Virus record (IMG/VR): IMGVR_UViG_3300020034_000076
Coordinates: 1-20,357 of that record
From: a virus
DNA: 20,357 bases
Direction: 5' to 3' (one strand)
The notes beneath the pieces are model-generated. The model made no database searches. It had not been told where the DNA came from and was given only the letters and a program-made list of their open reading frames with translations. The position numbers and the translations under genes are program-made. Positions 2,901 through 11,107 of the stretch are shown piece by piece; the first letter of the stretch is position 1, and every line of letters begins with the position of its first letter.

Positions 2901-4643
2901 ATGACGTTATCAAACAGAGCGACACCGATCTACTATGGTCAGTTTCGTGACGCGGTAATCCGTGGTGAGATTCCTGTAAACCGGGAAATCGCGATGGAGA
3001 TGAACCGCATTGATGCGCTCATCGCCAACCCGAACATCTACTACGACGATCAAGCTGTCGAAGGCTTTGTTCGTTACTGTGAGCACGAACTTACGCTGAC
3101 GGATGGCAGCGACATGCATCTTCTTCCCACATTCAAGTTGTGGGCGGAGCAGATTTTCGGTTGGTACTACTTCGTAGACCGCCAGATCTATCAACCATCC
3201 AAAGACAATCACGGTGGACATTACGTCACCAAGACAATCAAGAAGCGGTTGACTGTCAAGCAGTATCTGATTGTCGCTCGAGGCGCAGCCAAGTCCATGT
3301 ATGCCGAATGCATCCAGAGTTACTTCTTGAATGTAGACACGGCCACTACACATCAGATCACAACTGCTCCTACGATGAAACAAGCCGACGAAGTCATGTC
3401 GCCATTCAGAACTGCCGTCACAAGAGCTCGTGGTCCGCTCTTCAAGTTCTTGACTGCCGGCTCACTGCAGAACACAACTGGATCTAGAGCCAATCGGCCT
3501 CAGTTGGCGTCGACTAAGAAGGGTATCGAGAACTTCCTGACCGGATCTCTACTTGAAGTTCGTCCTATGACGATCGCCAAGCTTCAGGGGCTCCGTCCGA
3601 AGATCTCTACCATCGACGAATGGTTGTCGGGGGACATTCGAGAAGACGTTGTTGGCGCAGTTGAGCAAGGTGCGTCAAAGATGGAGGATTACTTGATCGT
3701 TGCCATCAGTTCCGAAGGGACTGTCCGTAACGGTTCAGGTGATACCATCAAAATGGAACTAGCAACCATCCTCCGCGGAGAGTACAAGGCTCCGCACATT
3801 TCGATCTGGCATTACAAGCTAGACGAGATCGAGGAGGTTGCTGATCCAGCGATGTGGCCGAAGGCTCAGCCGAACATTGGGCTGACTGTTAGCTACGAAA
3901 CTTACCAACTCGATGTGGAGCGTGCTGAGAAAGCACCAGCGTCTAGGAACGACATCCTCGCTAAGAGGTTCGGCATTCCGATGGAAGGCTACACCTACTT
4001 CTTTACATACGAAGACACTCTACCGCACAACCGTAGAGATTTCTGGCAGATGCCGTGTTCGCTAGGAGCTGACCTTTCACAAGGTGACGACTTCTGTGCG
4101 TTCACGTTCCTCTTCCCATTGAAGTACGGTTTCGGAGTGAAGACTCGAAGCTACATCACGTCATTGACTTTGTCGAAGTTGCCTAGCGCAATGCGACAGA
4201 AGTACGACGAGTTCCTTCGTGAGAATAGTCTGCACGTTCTCGAGGGAACGATCCTCGACATGATGGAGGTCTACGACGATCTCGAGCATCATATCGAGGA
4301 GAAAAAGTACGATGTTCGTACACTTGGATTCGACCCCTACAATGCCAAAGAATTCGTTGCTCGCTACGAGATGGAGAACGGACCATTCGGCGTACTCAAG
4401 GTGATCCAGGGCGCTAAGACCGAATCAGTTCCGCTAGGTGAGCTCAAGAAGTTGAGTGAAGAACGACTACTCTTCTTCGACGAGGCTCTCATGACCTTCG
4501 CGATGGGTAATGCCATTACCATGGAGGACACTAACGGGAACCGTAAGCTTCTAAAGAAACGTCAGGATGAGAAGATCGACAACGTGTCCGCTTTGATGGA
4601 CGCCTACGTCGCATACAAAGCAAACAAGGAGGCGTTCGAATGA
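2901..4643 (+). CDS. terL: Terminase large subunit
   Basis: The ATP-driven DNA-packaging motor and headful- or cos-cutting nuclease, 580 residues. The Walker A-like loop is RGAAKS at about residues 127-132. The Walker B region KISTIDEW places D239 and E240 as the acidic pair. The C-terminal RNase H-like nuclease shows the expected acidic residues: D391 in LGADLSQGDD, D478 in TLGFDPYN, and D560 or D567 in KIDNVSALMDAY. The length is normal for the HK97-like terminase family. ATG at 2901 is preferred over TTG at 2895 because AAGGGAGGG (2886-2894) lies six bases before it. The stop overlaps the next start as ATGA. It is flanked by two genes carrying the same unusual W-G motif. Confidence 0.95.
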   Translation: MTLSNRATPIYYGQFRDAVIRGEIPVNREIAMEMNRIDALIANPNIYYDDQAVEGFVRYCEHELTLTDGSDMHLLPTFKLWAEQIFGWYYFVDRQIYQPSKDNHGGHYVTKTIKKRLTVKQYLIVARGAAKSMYAECIQSYFLNVDTATTHQITTAPTMKQADEVMSPFRTAVTRARGPLFKFLTAGSLQNTTGSRANRPQLASTKKGIENFLTGSLLEVRPMTIAKLQGLRPKISTIDEWLSGDIREDVVGAVEQGASKMEDYLIVAISSEGTVRNGSGDTIKMELATILRGEYKAPHISIWHYKLDEIEEVADPAMWPKAQPNIGLTVSYETYQLDVERAEKAPASRNDILAKRFGIPMEGYTYFFTYEDTLPHNRRDFWQMPCSLGADLSQGDDFCAFTFLFPLKYGFGVKTRSYITSLTLSKLPSAMRQKYDEFLRENSLHVLEGTILDMMEVYDDLEHHIEEKKYDVRTLGFDPYNAKEFVARYEMENGPFGVLKVIQGAKTESVPLGELKKLSEERLLFFDEALMTFAMGNAITMEDTNGNRKLLKKRQDEKIDNVSALMDAYVAYKANKEAFE

Positions 4644-4999
4644 CAATGATCACCGGACACGAGAAGCCCGATCTGGCAGACATCGAGCATTTCGGTGTAG
4701 CAGGAATGAAGTGGGGCGTTCGTCGAGGTAAGAGCACTACCGGTTTGAGCCGGTTCAGTGGGGCCAAGGTTCAAGCCAATGACCGGGCTGTTCGCGCGCG
4801 CACGCGCGTAAAGGGCAGCGTCGTCGGTAAGATCCCCGGCGTGAAGAAGCACGAGGATAAGCAGATCGCTAAACTCGCAGCTTCGACCGCTCGCATCAAC
4901 GCTGGCCACAAGAAGGTTCAGGATATTCTGAACATCCACAGCACCGTGGGTATCTCCGATCTTCTGTTCACCAAGACCCCAAATCCCAAGAAGAAGTAA
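4640..4999 (+). CDS. Small basic protein with GVAGMKWGVRR motif; putative virion protein
   Basis: A 119-residue, strongly basic protein. The motif HFGVAGMKWGVRR sits at residues 17-29, the same distance from the N-terminus as in the 1967-2884 product. The rest is rich in Lys, Arg and Ala, with a helical middle (KLAASTARINAGHKKVQDIL) and a lysine-rich end. No catalytic signature is seen. It is coupled to the terminase by a 4-base ATGA overlap and has AAGGAGG seven bases before its ATG. Position between terminase and portal suggests a head-associated protein, perhaps packaged with or bound to DNA given its charge. This is inference. Confident as a gene, function unknown. Confidence 0.85.
   Translation: MTMITGHEKPDLADIEHFGVAGMKWGVRRGKSTTGLSRFSGAKVQANDRAVRARTRVKGSVVGKIPGVKKHEDKQIAKLAASTARINAGHKKVQDILNIHSTVGISDLLFTKTPNPKKK
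4793..4810. other. 18-base alternating purine-pyrimidine tract
   Basis: The bases alternate pyrimidine and purine without a break through CGCGCGCGCACGCGCGTA, inside codons for the Arg-rich part (VRARTRVK) of the small basic protein. Such tracts can adopt Z-DNA in vitro. Nothing else suggests a function here, and Arg/Val/Thr codon choice may be enough to explain it. Confidence 0.4.
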
Positions 5000-5035: not shown

Positions 5036-6295
5036 ATGGGGAAAATCGCAACTCAGTTGAAGCACGCGTGGAACGCATTCACGAATCAGGATCTCAGTCA
5101 GCGTATTCATACGTTTGGTGGTGGCGCTAGTTATGGCGGCCGCTCTGATCGACTGCGGTTCTCATATTCCAACGAGCGTTCCATCATCGCCTCAATCTAT
5201 ACGCGTCTTGGGATTGACGTGGCCGCGGTCGAACTCAGACACGTTCGTTTGGATGACGAAGATCAGTATGTCGAGACGATCGATGACGGTCTAAACCAAT
5301 GCATTACGGTAGAAGCCAACATCGACCAAGGTGGAACTGCTTTCCGCCAAGATATTGCGATGACTCTCTTCGACAAGGGCGTTGTTGCGATCGTTCCAGT
5401 GGATACGACGTTGAATCCTTCGATCTCAGGTTCCTACGACATCAACACGATGCGCGTTGGCGAGATCGTTGCGTGGTACCCACGACACGTTCGTGTCAAT
5501 CTGTACAACGACGTCAAAGGCGTTCGTGAGGAGCTCACTCTCGAGAAGAAGTATGTCGCGATTGTGGAGAACCCTCTGTACTCAGTGATGAACGAGCCGA
5601 ACTCAACTCTGCGACGATTAATCCATAAGCTCAACCTCTTGGATGTCGTCGATGAACAGTCAAGCTCGGGCAAACTCGATCTACTTCTCCAACTTCCATT
5701 CGTTGTTAAGTCCGAGGCCCGTCGGGATCAGGCAAAGCAGCGATTGACTGACATTGAGTTCCAGCTTCAAGGCAGCAAGCACGGCATCGCCTATGTGGAC
5801 GCTACCGAGAAGATCACTCAGCTGAACCGACCGGTCGAGAATGGTCTACTCGCTCAGATCACCACGTTGACTACTTTGCTCTATAGCCAACTAGGTCTGA
5901 CTGATGAGATCATGAATGGCACGGCCGATGAAGCCACCATGCTGAACTACATGAATCGTACAATCATGCCGATTACCGAAGCGATCGTCGAAGCCATGAA
6001 GCGAACCTTCCTGACTAAGACTGCTCGATCGCAGAAGCAATCGATAGCGTCCTTCTACGATCCGTTCAAGTTTGTGCCGATTGCTCAGATCGCGGACATC
6101 GCGGACAAGTTCAGTCGTAACAAGATCCTTTCTGCCAACGAACTACGGGCCAAGATCGGCGTTAAGCCTTCTAAGGATCCGGAAGCCAGTAAACTGGTAA
6201 ACAGCAACATGCCGCAACCGGGTCCGTCGGATCCGAACCAAGCACCACCAACACAAACGGAAGGAGACGGTCAAAATGGGAGTAACCAAGGCTGA
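5036..6295 (+). CDS. Portal protein (HK97-type)
   Basis: A 419-residue protein forming the dodecameric ring at the unique capsid vertex through which DNA is packaged and to which the tail is joined. Family features include an N-terminal region after a Gly-rich segment, the membrane-facing wing-like beta region (WYPRHVRVNLYN...), and the long stem and crown helices near TTLTTLLYSQLGLTDEIMNG followed by the conserved MNRTIMPI and IADKFSRNKILSANELRAKIG segments. The last 30 residues are Pro/Gln/Gly-rich and disordered. The ATG follows AAAGGAGGTGACTC, nearly the same initiation region as at 1958-1971. The 3' end overlaps the capsid gene by 20 bases. No MuF-like gene is encoded after it. Confidence 0.93.
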   Translation: MGKIATQLKHAWNAFTNQDLSQRIHTFGGGASYGGRSDRLRFSYSNERSIIASIYTRLGIDVAAVELRHVRLDDEDQYVETIDDGLNQCITVEANIDQGGTAFRQDIAMTLFDKGVVAIVPVDTTLNPSISGSYDINTMRVGEIVAWYPRHVRVNLYNDVKGVREELTLEKKYVAIVENPLYSVMNEPNSTLRRLIHKLNLLDVVDEQSSSGKLDLLLQLPFVVKSEARRDQAKQRLTDIEFQLQGSKHGIAYVDATEKITQLNRPVENGLLAQITTLTTLLYSQLGLTDEIMNGTADEATMLNYMNRTIMPITEAIVEAMKRTFLTKTARSQKQSIASFYDPFKFVPIAQIADIADKFSRNKILSANELRAKIGVKPSKDPEASKLVNSNMPQPGPSDPNQAPPTQTEGDGQNGSNQG

Positions 6296-8865: not shown

Positions 8866-9729
8866 ATGACCAAGCTTGCTTGGGACCAGACTGGCGCACG
8901 TCTCTACGAGACTGGTGTCAATCAGGGCGTTCTCTACATTCCGGACGGATCCGGCGTGTACAGCGATGGTTATGCTTGGAACGGTCTGACGACCGTCACC
9001 GAGTCGCCATCAGGCGCGGAAGCAAACCCGCAGTACGCGGACAACATCAAGTACCTCAACCTCATCTCGGCGGAGCAGTTCGGCGCTACGGTGGAGGCTT
9101 TCACCTTCCCGGCCGAGTTCGCGCAGTGTGATGGTACGGCTACGCCGACTCCCGGCGTCTCTCTCGGCCAGCAGTCCCGCAAGACGTTCGGTCTGTGCTA
9201 CAAGACCCGGCTCGGCAACGATCTTCTGGGTACGGACTACGGTTACAAGCTGCACCTAGTCTACGGCGCGACCGCGGCCCCGTCTGAGAAGGCGTACGCC
9301 ACGATCAATGACTCACCTGAGGCCCTCTCGTTCAGCTGGGAGCTCACCACCACTCCGGTGGACGTCCCGGGTTTCAAGCCGACCGCCAGCATGACCATCG
9401 ACTCGACGCTTGTCGACGCCGACGCTCTGGCCACTCTCGAGGATGTCCTCTACGGTACCGAAGGTCAGGACCCGCGTCTGCCGTTGCCGGCCGAGGTCAT
9501 CGCTCAGTTCGCTGACACCGTCACCGAGGTCACCCCGGCCAAGCCGTCGTTTGCGGCGAACGTCATCACGATCCCGGTCATCACCGGTGTCACCTACAAG
9601 ATCGATGGCGTTACCAAGACCGGTACCGTCACGATCACCGAAGACGTCATCGTCAACGCCGTTCCTGTCTCGGGCTACAAGTTCCCGCCCGTCACGGACA
9701 CGGACTGGCTGTTCGTCTACGCCCCGTAA
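8866..9729 (+). CDS. Major tail (tube) protein with C-terminal Ig-like module
   Basis: A 287-residue tail-tube subunit. Residues 1-215 have the tube-protein pattern: [53 protein letters not shown] and [15 protein letters not shown]. Residues 222-287 form an Ig-like module ([20 protein letters not shown] ... SGYKF ... TDTDWLF) very like the end of the capsid protein, presumably decorating the outside of the tail. ATG at 8866 follows AAGGAG (8855-8860); GTG at 8860 overlaps that site. Codon use is strongly C/G-ending, like the capsid gene and unlike the following genes, consistent with very high expression. A paralogue lacking this module is encoded at 10316. Confidence 0.93.
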
Positions 9730-9744
9730 GTCCATTCATGAGAG

Positions 9745-9859
9745 GAGACCAGAGAATGCTCGAAGTTTCAGTTCCTATGTCGGAATCGTTTGACGAAGCG
9801 AACAGCGAATTCGTAATCGCTACAGTATTCGTTCTAGAGCTAGAGCATTCTCTGGTCTC
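9745..9859 (+). promoter_or_regulatory. 17-bp perfect inverted repeat enclosing the chaperone start codon
   Basis: GAGACCAGAGAATGCTC at 9745-9761 is perfectly complementary to GAGCATTCTCTGGTCTC at 9843-9859, separated by 81 bases. The left arm contains the 3' end of the ribosome-binding site (AGGAG 9743-9747) and the ATG at 9756-9758. In mRNA the stem would block initiation of the tail assembly chaperone. The right arm is coding (LEHSLVSL). With equal base frequencies, my rough arithmetic expects about one such repeat per ten thousand windows of this size. Confidence 0.7.
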
Positions 9860-10301
9860 ACTGTCAAAATGGGAGTCTTTCTACGAAAAGCCGTTCTTGG
9901 GCAACGAGAAGAAGACTTCTGAAGAGACTCTTTGGTACATCAAGGCCATGGCTTTAGACCAAAAAGTGCCTCCGGAGGTTTTCCAGAATCTTTCCAGCGA
10001 GAACATCGATGCGATTAATACTTACATCGGTGCGAAGATGACCGCAACGTGGTTCGCTGAAGACAAGAACGCTAAACCTAATCGCGAAGTGATAACTGCT
10101 GAGCTCATGTACTACTGGATGATTGCTCTTGGGATCCCATTCGAGTGTCAGCACTGGCATTTGGAGCGACTGATAACTCTTATCAGAGTTTGCAATGTCA
10201 AGAATTCACCCAAGAAGAAGAATTCCCCAACAAGAGATTCCATCGCTCAGCGAAATGCACTCAACGAACAACGAAAAGCTCAAATGGGAACTAGCGGATG
10301 A
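9756..10301 (+). CDS. Tail assembly chaperone
   Basis: A 181-residue protein matching the family of tail assembly chaperones that coat the tape measure before tube polymerisation. Recognisable segments are [56 protein letters not shown] and [19 protein letters not shown]. It lies between the tube protein and the tape measure, as expected. ATG at 9756 follows AGGAG (9743-9747). An in-frame ATG at 9738 lacks a ribosome-binding site. The start codon is buried in a 17-bp inverted repeat. No classical -1 slippery heptamer or downstream overlapping frame is seen at the 3' end, and only 14 bases separate it from the next gene. The G/GT frameshifted form of lambda-like phages is therefore not evident. 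The gene is more A/T-ending in codon use than the preceding tube gene. Confidence 0.88.
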
Positions 10302-10315
10302 GAGGCGGAAGTTAA

Positions 10316-11107
10316 ATGCCAAGACTTAACTGGGGCGCCGCCGGCGCGCGTTTCTTCGAGGTTGGTGTTGATCGTGGAGTTCTATTCGTCCCAGGACAAG
10401 ACGGTGTCGCCTGGTCAGGTCTAATTTCGGTTGCAGAAAAAAGCTCCGGAGGTGATCCTGACGCGTACTACGTAGATGGCGTCAAGTTCCAGAACATTCC
10501 AGCTCCGGAGGAATTCGAGGCAACTATTAACGCCTTCACTTATCCGGATCTGTTCGCTGTTTGCGATGGAACCACGCGAGTACGTCCTGGGTTGTTTATT
10601 AATCAGCAACCCCGTCAATCGTTCAGTCTTTCCTACCGGACTCGAATCGGTAATGACTTGGATGGTGTCGATCATGCCTACAAGATTCATATTGTCTACA
10701 ATGCTCTGGCGGCCCCGTCAGATCGAGACAACAAGTCTCTGGGCGATTCGAGCGATCCGTCTGACTTCACTTGGGATATTACGACTCTTCCTCCGGCGGT
10801 TTCGGGATACCGACGTTCCGGACATATCGTAGTTGATTCTCGTTACGCAGGACCGAACGTTATGTCCGCTCTCGAGGATGTTATTTATGGAACAGACACC
10901 AACCCAGCCGCACTTCCGACGCTGGCCGATCTGGTCACCATATTTGACACCAACGCGACACTTACTATCACGGATAATGGCGATGGTACATTTACCGCCG
11001 AAGGCCCGAACGACGTAGTGGTCATGCTTGACTCGACACATTACTCGATCACCGCCGATTCTGTCATCGACAACGGCGACGACACATTCACGCTCAGTTC
11101 CGAATAG
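10316..11107 (+). CDS. Second tail-tube paralogue with distinct C-terminal module
   Basis: A 263-residue protein clearly homologous to the major tail protein at 8866. Shared landmarks in order are GARFFEVGVDRGVLFVP, FEATINAFTYPDLFAVCDGT, LSYRTRIGNDLDGVDHAYKI, AAPSD and ALEDVIYGTD. Its C-terminus, from about residue 212, is different: two copies of a DNGDGTF / DNGDDTF pattern around VVVMLDSTHYSI, a beta-rich module. Codon use is less biased than in the first copy, and the ribosome-binding site (GGCGGAAG) is weaker, so it is probably made in smaller amounts. It could cap the tube, form the part nearest the tip, or provide a host-contact subunit. These are inferences. Confidence 0.87.
   Translation: MPRLNWGAAGARFFEVGVDRGVLFVPGQDGVAWSGLISVAEKSSGGDPDAYYVDGVKFQNIPAPEEFEATINAFTYPDLFAVCDGTTRVRPGLFINQQPRQSFSLSYRTRIGNDLDGVDHAYKIHIVYNALAAPSDRDNKSLGDSSDPSDFTWDITTLPPAVSGYRRSGHIVVDSRYAGPNVMSALEDVIYGTDTNPAALPTLADLVTIFDTNATLTITDNGDGTFTAEGPNDVVVMLDSTHYSITADSVIDNGDDTFTLSSE

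Follow-up and report, generated by a model that had tools for sequence, protein, structure and literature searches.

To our knowledge, nearly all long-tailed phages set the dose of their tail assembly chaperone by ribosomal frameshifting. In phage lambda, a programmed frameshift gives rise to gpG and gpGT and keeps one chaperone product scarce, at a ratio of about 30:1 (PMC5009743). The leader of the MS2 maturation-protein gene limits translation kinetically; as far as the account in PMC6733600 goes (citing Groeneveld 1995 and van Meerten 2001), a cloverleaf in the upstream leader of this RNA phage hides the start, and translation is thought possible only before folding. In the type I toxin mRNAs hok and aapA3, the start codon or Shine-Dalgarno (SD) sequence is sequestered by an anti-SD, one of them embedded in the reading frame, and co-transcriptional control is combined with a need for processing or an antitoxin RNA (PMC6733600). 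Finally, the SAS and ESAS elements of Cluster K mycobacteriophages are short motifs that stand in a single orientation at gene starts, in some cases accompanied by 17-bp inverted repeats; the ESAS repeat is imperfect, has 4–13 bp spacers, lies beside GGGATAGGAGCCC and has little support as an RNA hairpin (PMC3203893).

The locus described here lies in a 20,357-nt stretch of viral DNA (IMG/VR record IMGVR_UViG_3300020034_000076), which we call the window. The original prediction, made from its letters, held that a 17-bp perfect inverted repeat locks the start codon of a tail assembly chaperone gene. The repeat is present as claimed: GAGACCAGAGAATGCTC at 9745–9761 is matched by its exact reverse complement at 9843–9859, with 17/17 positions paired. 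The features of the locus are as follows.

8866–9729, + strand: major tail protein gene, upstream, with its stop codon at 9727–9729 (phrog_2645, E 5e-114)
9743–9747, + strand: AGGAG, the SD sequence for the locked gene, overlapping the left arm by its final three bases (sequence; probability of being unpaired ≤0.01)
9745–9761, + strand: left arm, comprising the SD end, spacer, start codon and codon 2 (repeat search; covariation)
9756–9758, + strand: ATG start codon within the helix, where ATG/GTG varies jointly with the His31 codon CAT/CAC (covariation)
9756–10301, + strand: the gene under the lock (181 aa, phrog_4338), probably a tail assembly chaperone or the T part of one (PHROG, AlphaFold, Foldseek)
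9762–9842, + strand: 81-nt loop, codons 3–29
9843–9859, + strand: right arm, codons 30–35 (EHSLVS), in frame (repeat search; synonymous shuffles; covariation)
9864–9875, + strand: TCAAAATGGGAG, invariant codons 37–40 just 3′ of the helix and outside it, a copy of a genome-wide late-gene motif (65/65, 118/118)
10316–11107, + strand: second major tail protein paralogue, downstream of the locked gene (phrog_2645, E 3e-93)

Within the limits of the published account cited above, the locus resembles the MS2 maturation gene in that an mRNA structure would hide the start of a low-dose virion or assembly protein. It differs from MS2 in using one long helix, in which the ribosome-binding site pairs with codons of the gene itself, and in its occurrence among tailed phages with DNA genomes, from two or more bacterial phyla. 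The sequestered start and SD, and control that would act co-transcriptionally, recall hok and aapA3, although here no toxin, antitoxin or 3′ processing was seen. Unlike lambda gpG/gpGT, the phrog_4338 gene is followed by no overlapping frameshift ORF in the ORF list (the next gene, the major tail protein paralogue, begins 15 nt past the stop), and it is at initiation that scarcity would arise, through the helix or through a stop/start overlap. Unlike the SAS and ESAS elements, the arms are separated by an 81-nt loop and covary strongly, and the adjacent motif has another sequence. We found no earlier description of this start-codon lock in the libraries and literature searched; the control itself is of a known kind, and no Rfam covariance model matched the window or four relatives at gathering score.

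Folding positions 9700–9900, a check that had been suggested, gives −76.5 kcal/mol compared with −53.8 for shuffled sequences, a difference of 4.9 standard deviations (z −4.9, 0/200), and both the minimum free energy and centroid structures contain the helix between the leader and the region beginning at codon 30. In a 400-nt context the ATG and ribosome-binding site are buried as proposed, being paired at about 0.99 or more; the probability of being unpaired is ≤0.002 for the ATG. The earlier chance estimate of about 1e-4 is of the right order (20,357 × about 100 / 4^17). The suggestion that codon choice in the right arm is tuned to the leader was likewise borne out: when codons alone were shuffled with the protein held fixed, the window helix beat 99.3% of shuffles (p=0.0067), so the protein alone accounts for only part of the match. 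The major tail protein stop does fall just short of the stem, with 15 nt between them. In some relatives the smallest gaps from the upstream stop to the stem are 3–13 nt, within reach of a terminating ribosome, so coupled opening is possible there.

The helix is conserved among relatives as an RNA structure. It forms in 118/118 actinophage-type homologues (a non-redundant set with <85% identity to each other), with pairing probabilities of 0.72–1.00 and a median probability of 0.0009 that the start is unpaired. Among 148 other homologues, mostly from Clostridia-type phages, it is found in 106. Gordonia and Rhodococcus phages keep it with very different letters, as in L091, where the arms are UUAAGGU AUG CUCCAGCUUCAG with UUGAGGCUGGAGCACUCCUUAG; Curtobacterium phages, Clostridia-type phages and some prophages also keep it in quite different sequence, and in L187 it reaches up to 23 perfect pairs. 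RNAalifold, unaided, recovers the identical long helix, and no conserved structure was found by this alignment fold in the loop at 9762–9842. The remaining 42 of the 148 non-actinophage homologues, including both Lactococcus phages examined (1706 and P118), have no strong helix. Homologues without complementarity had been named in advance as evidence against the lock; their existence indicates that the helix is not indispensable to the protein, and they tend toward another weak-initiation layout, described below.

Compensatory changes in the two arms, which the original prediction had proposed to look for, are abundant. In a 64-sequence alignment, 9/22 pairs have changes on both sides and 72 double-change cells are found against 27 in shuffles; the signal is gone when the partner is slid by 1–3 nt. 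When changes in the actinophage-type set are counted on a tree of the remaining part of the protein, both sides change on 44 branches against an expectation of 10.7, and pairing is preserved on 37 of the 44. The start codon itself takes part: ATG goes with CAT and GTG with CAC at His31 (62/7 and 43/4; odds ratio 95, p=1e-19), while the control codon His135 has no link to the start codon (p=0.46). With the protein fixed, 99/118 sequences are better than 99% of their synonymous shuffles, and own arms pair at −34.3 kcal/mol compared with −29.3 for swapped arms (permutation sd 0.30), in a test that, unlike the tree count, ignores relatedness. Evolution has thus maintained the helix as an RNA structure, and in the predicted ensemble it buries the start codon. 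The matched changes on both arms suggest that the RNA itself probably limits the amount of a presumed low-dose protein.

The identity of that protein is less firmly established than the helix. Relatives of phrog_4338 number 238 in phage records and hundreds in IMG/VR, with prophages mainly in Clostridia-type genomes; the host genera of the phage-record relatives are Arthrobacter, Gordonia, Streptomyces, Lactococcus, Curtobacterium, Rhodococcus, Microbacterium and Faecalibacterium. In most actinophages examined the gene comes after the major tail gene and, as a rule, before a second major-tail paralogue, and in Firmicute prophages and Lactococcus 1706 and P118 it directly precedes a neck/tail-completion gene and then the tape measure. 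A position between major tail protein and tape measure is thus found in the window, in Firmicute prophages and in both Lactococcus phages. The AlphaFold model of the 181-aa protein (pLDDT 91) has no significant fold match in the PDB; in Foldseek its best annotated viral match (prob 0.96, E 0.015) comes from Paenibacillus phage Wanderer and is a tail assembly protein joined by frameshifting, the GT product, against which hhalign gives the phrog_4338 protein a value of 0.1%. The alignment also reveals a basic C-terminal tail. The chaperone assignment made earlier therefore gains from synteny and one distant fold match and is not borne out by any Pfam, NCBIfam or PHROG family, the tail assembly chaperone profiles of Pfam and NCBIfam giving no match. 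On balance we lean towards a tail assembly chaperone, with some confidence. A literature search for frameshifting in phage 1706 found nothing, and a candidate overlapping ORF from the ATG inside TCAAAATGGG was rejected, its median length being just 13 codons in actinophage-type sequences or 6 codons in the others.

A separate family bears a chaperone name in these phages. Pfam PF23803, 'Phage_TAC_17', adjoins phrog_4338 in Firmicute phages (L478–L481; Lactococcus 1706 and P118; L228:3525–3968). In actinophages it lies outside the structural gene block, for example at 32177–32683 in Scarif, so that its chaperone name may be wrong.

The homologues that lack the stem provide what we regard as the best, though indirect, evidence on function. 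Of 38 non-actinophage homologues that lack a strong helix and whose upstream gene is clear, 19 have a start codon ≤12 nt from, or overlapping, the upstream stop, compared with 5/105 of those with a stem (p=3e-9), and their SD sequences are weaker than those of stem-bearing homologues. Low initiation may therefore come by another route in these phages: whether the ribosome-binding site is good but locked, or poor and served by a ribosome that terminates at the upstream gene, the layout looks suited to holding initiation down.

A scan of start regions in the window and four further genomes places the phrog_4338 gene as the strongest outlier in 4/5, and in three of those four genomes the next outlier is the gene for the terminase large subunit, a protein needed in small amounts. 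Its similar but weaker lock, with the start codon at 2901, is a 22-nt repeat supported by covariation.

2892–2913, + strand: left arm of the terminase lock
3010–3031, + strand: right arm of the terminase lock

Across 72 distinct starts the terminase arms covary, own arms pairing at −18.5 and swapped arms at −15.8 (permutation sd 0.28); the covariation is weaker than in the phrog_4338 lock and is not universal. As an observation apart from the locks, two window proteins, encoded at 1967–2884 and 4640–4999, carry repeated H[HF]GVxGxKWGVRR-type motifs, with several copies per window.

Conservation continues to the right of the helix, and part of it, missed in the original prediction, belongs to an adjacent genome-wide late-gene motif. 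TCAAAATGG stands beside the right arm in 118/118 actinophage-type homologues, and codons 37–38 are TCA AAA in 65/65 sequences, although elsewhere these make up 12% of Ser and 25% of Lys codons. The 12-mer of 9864–9875 recurs at 6271–6282, over the start codon of the capsid/protease gene. In its general form, TCAAAATRGGAGT, the motif occurs in the window at both of these positions and at 3748–3759, and also in L422, L423, L424, L425 and L438–L477. Over 26 phage records, TCAAAATRRGA has 77 sites to 0, all on the coding strand of the late genes, and in Clostridia-type prophages the count by strand is 10 to 0. Outside the phrog_4338 gene, 35 of 55 sites are at gene boundaries and 20 are inside ORFs; at many boundary sites the motif encloses the start codon or SD, and a terminator-like hairpin precedes some of them. 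The flanks of sites beyond the phrog_4338 gene are unconserved and contain no long stem. We considered UCAAAAUGGGAG as part of the helix or as a pseudoknot partner, and have treated it as a separate signal since it recurs elsewhere without stems; it is invariant, so covariation cannot be seen there. Having at least 54 other sites without the helix, the motif must serve a separate purpose; it accounts for some of the conservation to the right of the helix and not for the helix itself.

Several further observations concern this motif and its surroundings. In many phages the capsid/protease fusion gene has its start codon within the motif (TCAAA-ATG-GGA; L422:7713, L423:8031, L083:1158). The clade of L288, L294 and L302 has lost TCAAAA or its context at codons 37–38 and carries TCAAAATGG in the leader, 22 nt before the start of phrog_4338, as though the motif had shifted to that place. 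A second repeated element, TATAATGAGACCCCTACGAAAGG, is found outside the structural genes in L422–L425 and looks like a family of early promoters.

All 30/30 searched records with phrog_4338 also encode phrog_4291, a relative of the Secretariat gp83 RNA polymerase with a DFDGD motif, and the carriers include the Lactococcus phages and Clostridia-type prophages; the Wanderer control has none. The protein is of the two-barrel 'RNA-dependent RNA polymerase' type with HTH-like ends (L425:46654–49302 and homologues L426–L437). Our leading reading is that the motif is the late promoter of this enzyme, although sites over start codons and inside genes fit a late promoter poorly, and we regard TCAAAATRGGAGT as a candidate late promoter or signal associated with ribosome-binding sites. 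For the YonO RNA polymerase no promoter has been established (PMC5467207).

Taken with the folding models, these sequence comparisons make it likely, in our judgement, that the helix acts in cis as an RNA lock on translation initiation of the phrog_4338 gene, whose presumed low-dose product would be made mainly from nascent mRNA. On late transcripts, codons 30–35 would pair with the gene's own SD, spacer, start codon and codon 2 in a 17–24 bp helix, and this helix would lower initiation. Helices beyond −30 kcal/mol almost abolish initiation at equilibrium, so translation would take place mainly on nascent mRNA, before the right arm exists. That opportunity would end once RNA polymerase makes the right arm, about 100–115 nt past the start codon, and each mRNA would yield one or a few rounds of translation; a ribosome passing over codons 25–45 may open the start again, briefly, for its successor. 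The expected outcome is a probable chaperone made far below the level of the tube protein, whose coding sequence immediately precedes that of the chaperone on their shared mRNA.

Other explanations of the same helix would give it a regulatory, processing or boundary role. A regulated switch, in which the gene product or a putative factor reading UCAAAAUGGGAG stabilises or opens the lock to bring about autoregulation or timing, is unlikely but would make sense of the protein's basic C-terminal tail and of the invariant motif directly 3′ of the right arm (118/118 actinophage-type); the motif, however, has at least 54 further sites with no such helix, and a general link between motif and stem was rejected, their co-occurrence in the other, Firmicute-type phages being just weak (p=0.025). 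We give slightly less credence to RNase III-type processing, in which the helix would be cut to remove the ribosome-binding site and separate the major-tail mRNA from the downstream part. The 17–24 base pairs of the helix are the size that RNase III cuts, and the helix lies at a gene junction with its 3′ side abutting the motif of many late-gene starts, but the covariation centres on the start codon and SD and not on a generic duplex, and it is the initiation layout that stemless homologues alter.

The motif could also mark a transcript boundary, with the helix ending or attenuating upstream transcripts and the adjacent TCAAAATGGGAG starting a new one. Other copies do lie directly after terminator-like hairpins (L440, L441, L445, L448; Scarif 26415); against this, intrinsic terminators do not resemble a helix with an 81-nt loop and no U-run, ending transcripts at this point would remove the helix-bearing gene itself, and other motif sites have no comparable stem (mean z −0.04), which together leave a boundary improbable. 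Least credible of all is that EHSLVSL and a purine-rich ribosome-binding site, each conserved for its own reasons, pair by accident. Protein constraint alone yields pairing of about −18 to −20 kcal/mol, whereas real pairing averages −34, the start and His codons change together, both-side branches number 44 vs 10.7, and swapped arms pair worse. Chance or a by-product of codon use is thus ruled out by the synonymous nulls, the arm swaps and the tree-aware covariation.

Whether a lock on initiation stands in for frameshift-based dosage, as originally proposed, is a matter of inference, helped by the swap between the stem and a stop/start overlap with a weak SD and by the lock at the terminase gene. 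More broadly, and only tentatively, tailed phages of a widespread lineage, which would use a two-barrel RNA polymerase of their own for late genes, may dose scarce assembly proteins (the probable tail chaperone and terminase) by start-codon locks in the first 30–45 codons, with about one round of translation per nascent mRNA in place of frameshifting, and with the separate, strand-specific TCAAAATRGGAG marking late transcripts. The motif offers a first candidate for a late signal in phages whose RNA polymerases are YonO-like. Covarying RNA locks of this type, spread over hundreds of phages and shared with the terminase gene, would be a different answer to the chaperone dosage problem. Conservation of an RNA structure within such an assembly gene, in tailed phages with DNA genomes from two or more bacterial phyla, would moreover be rare.
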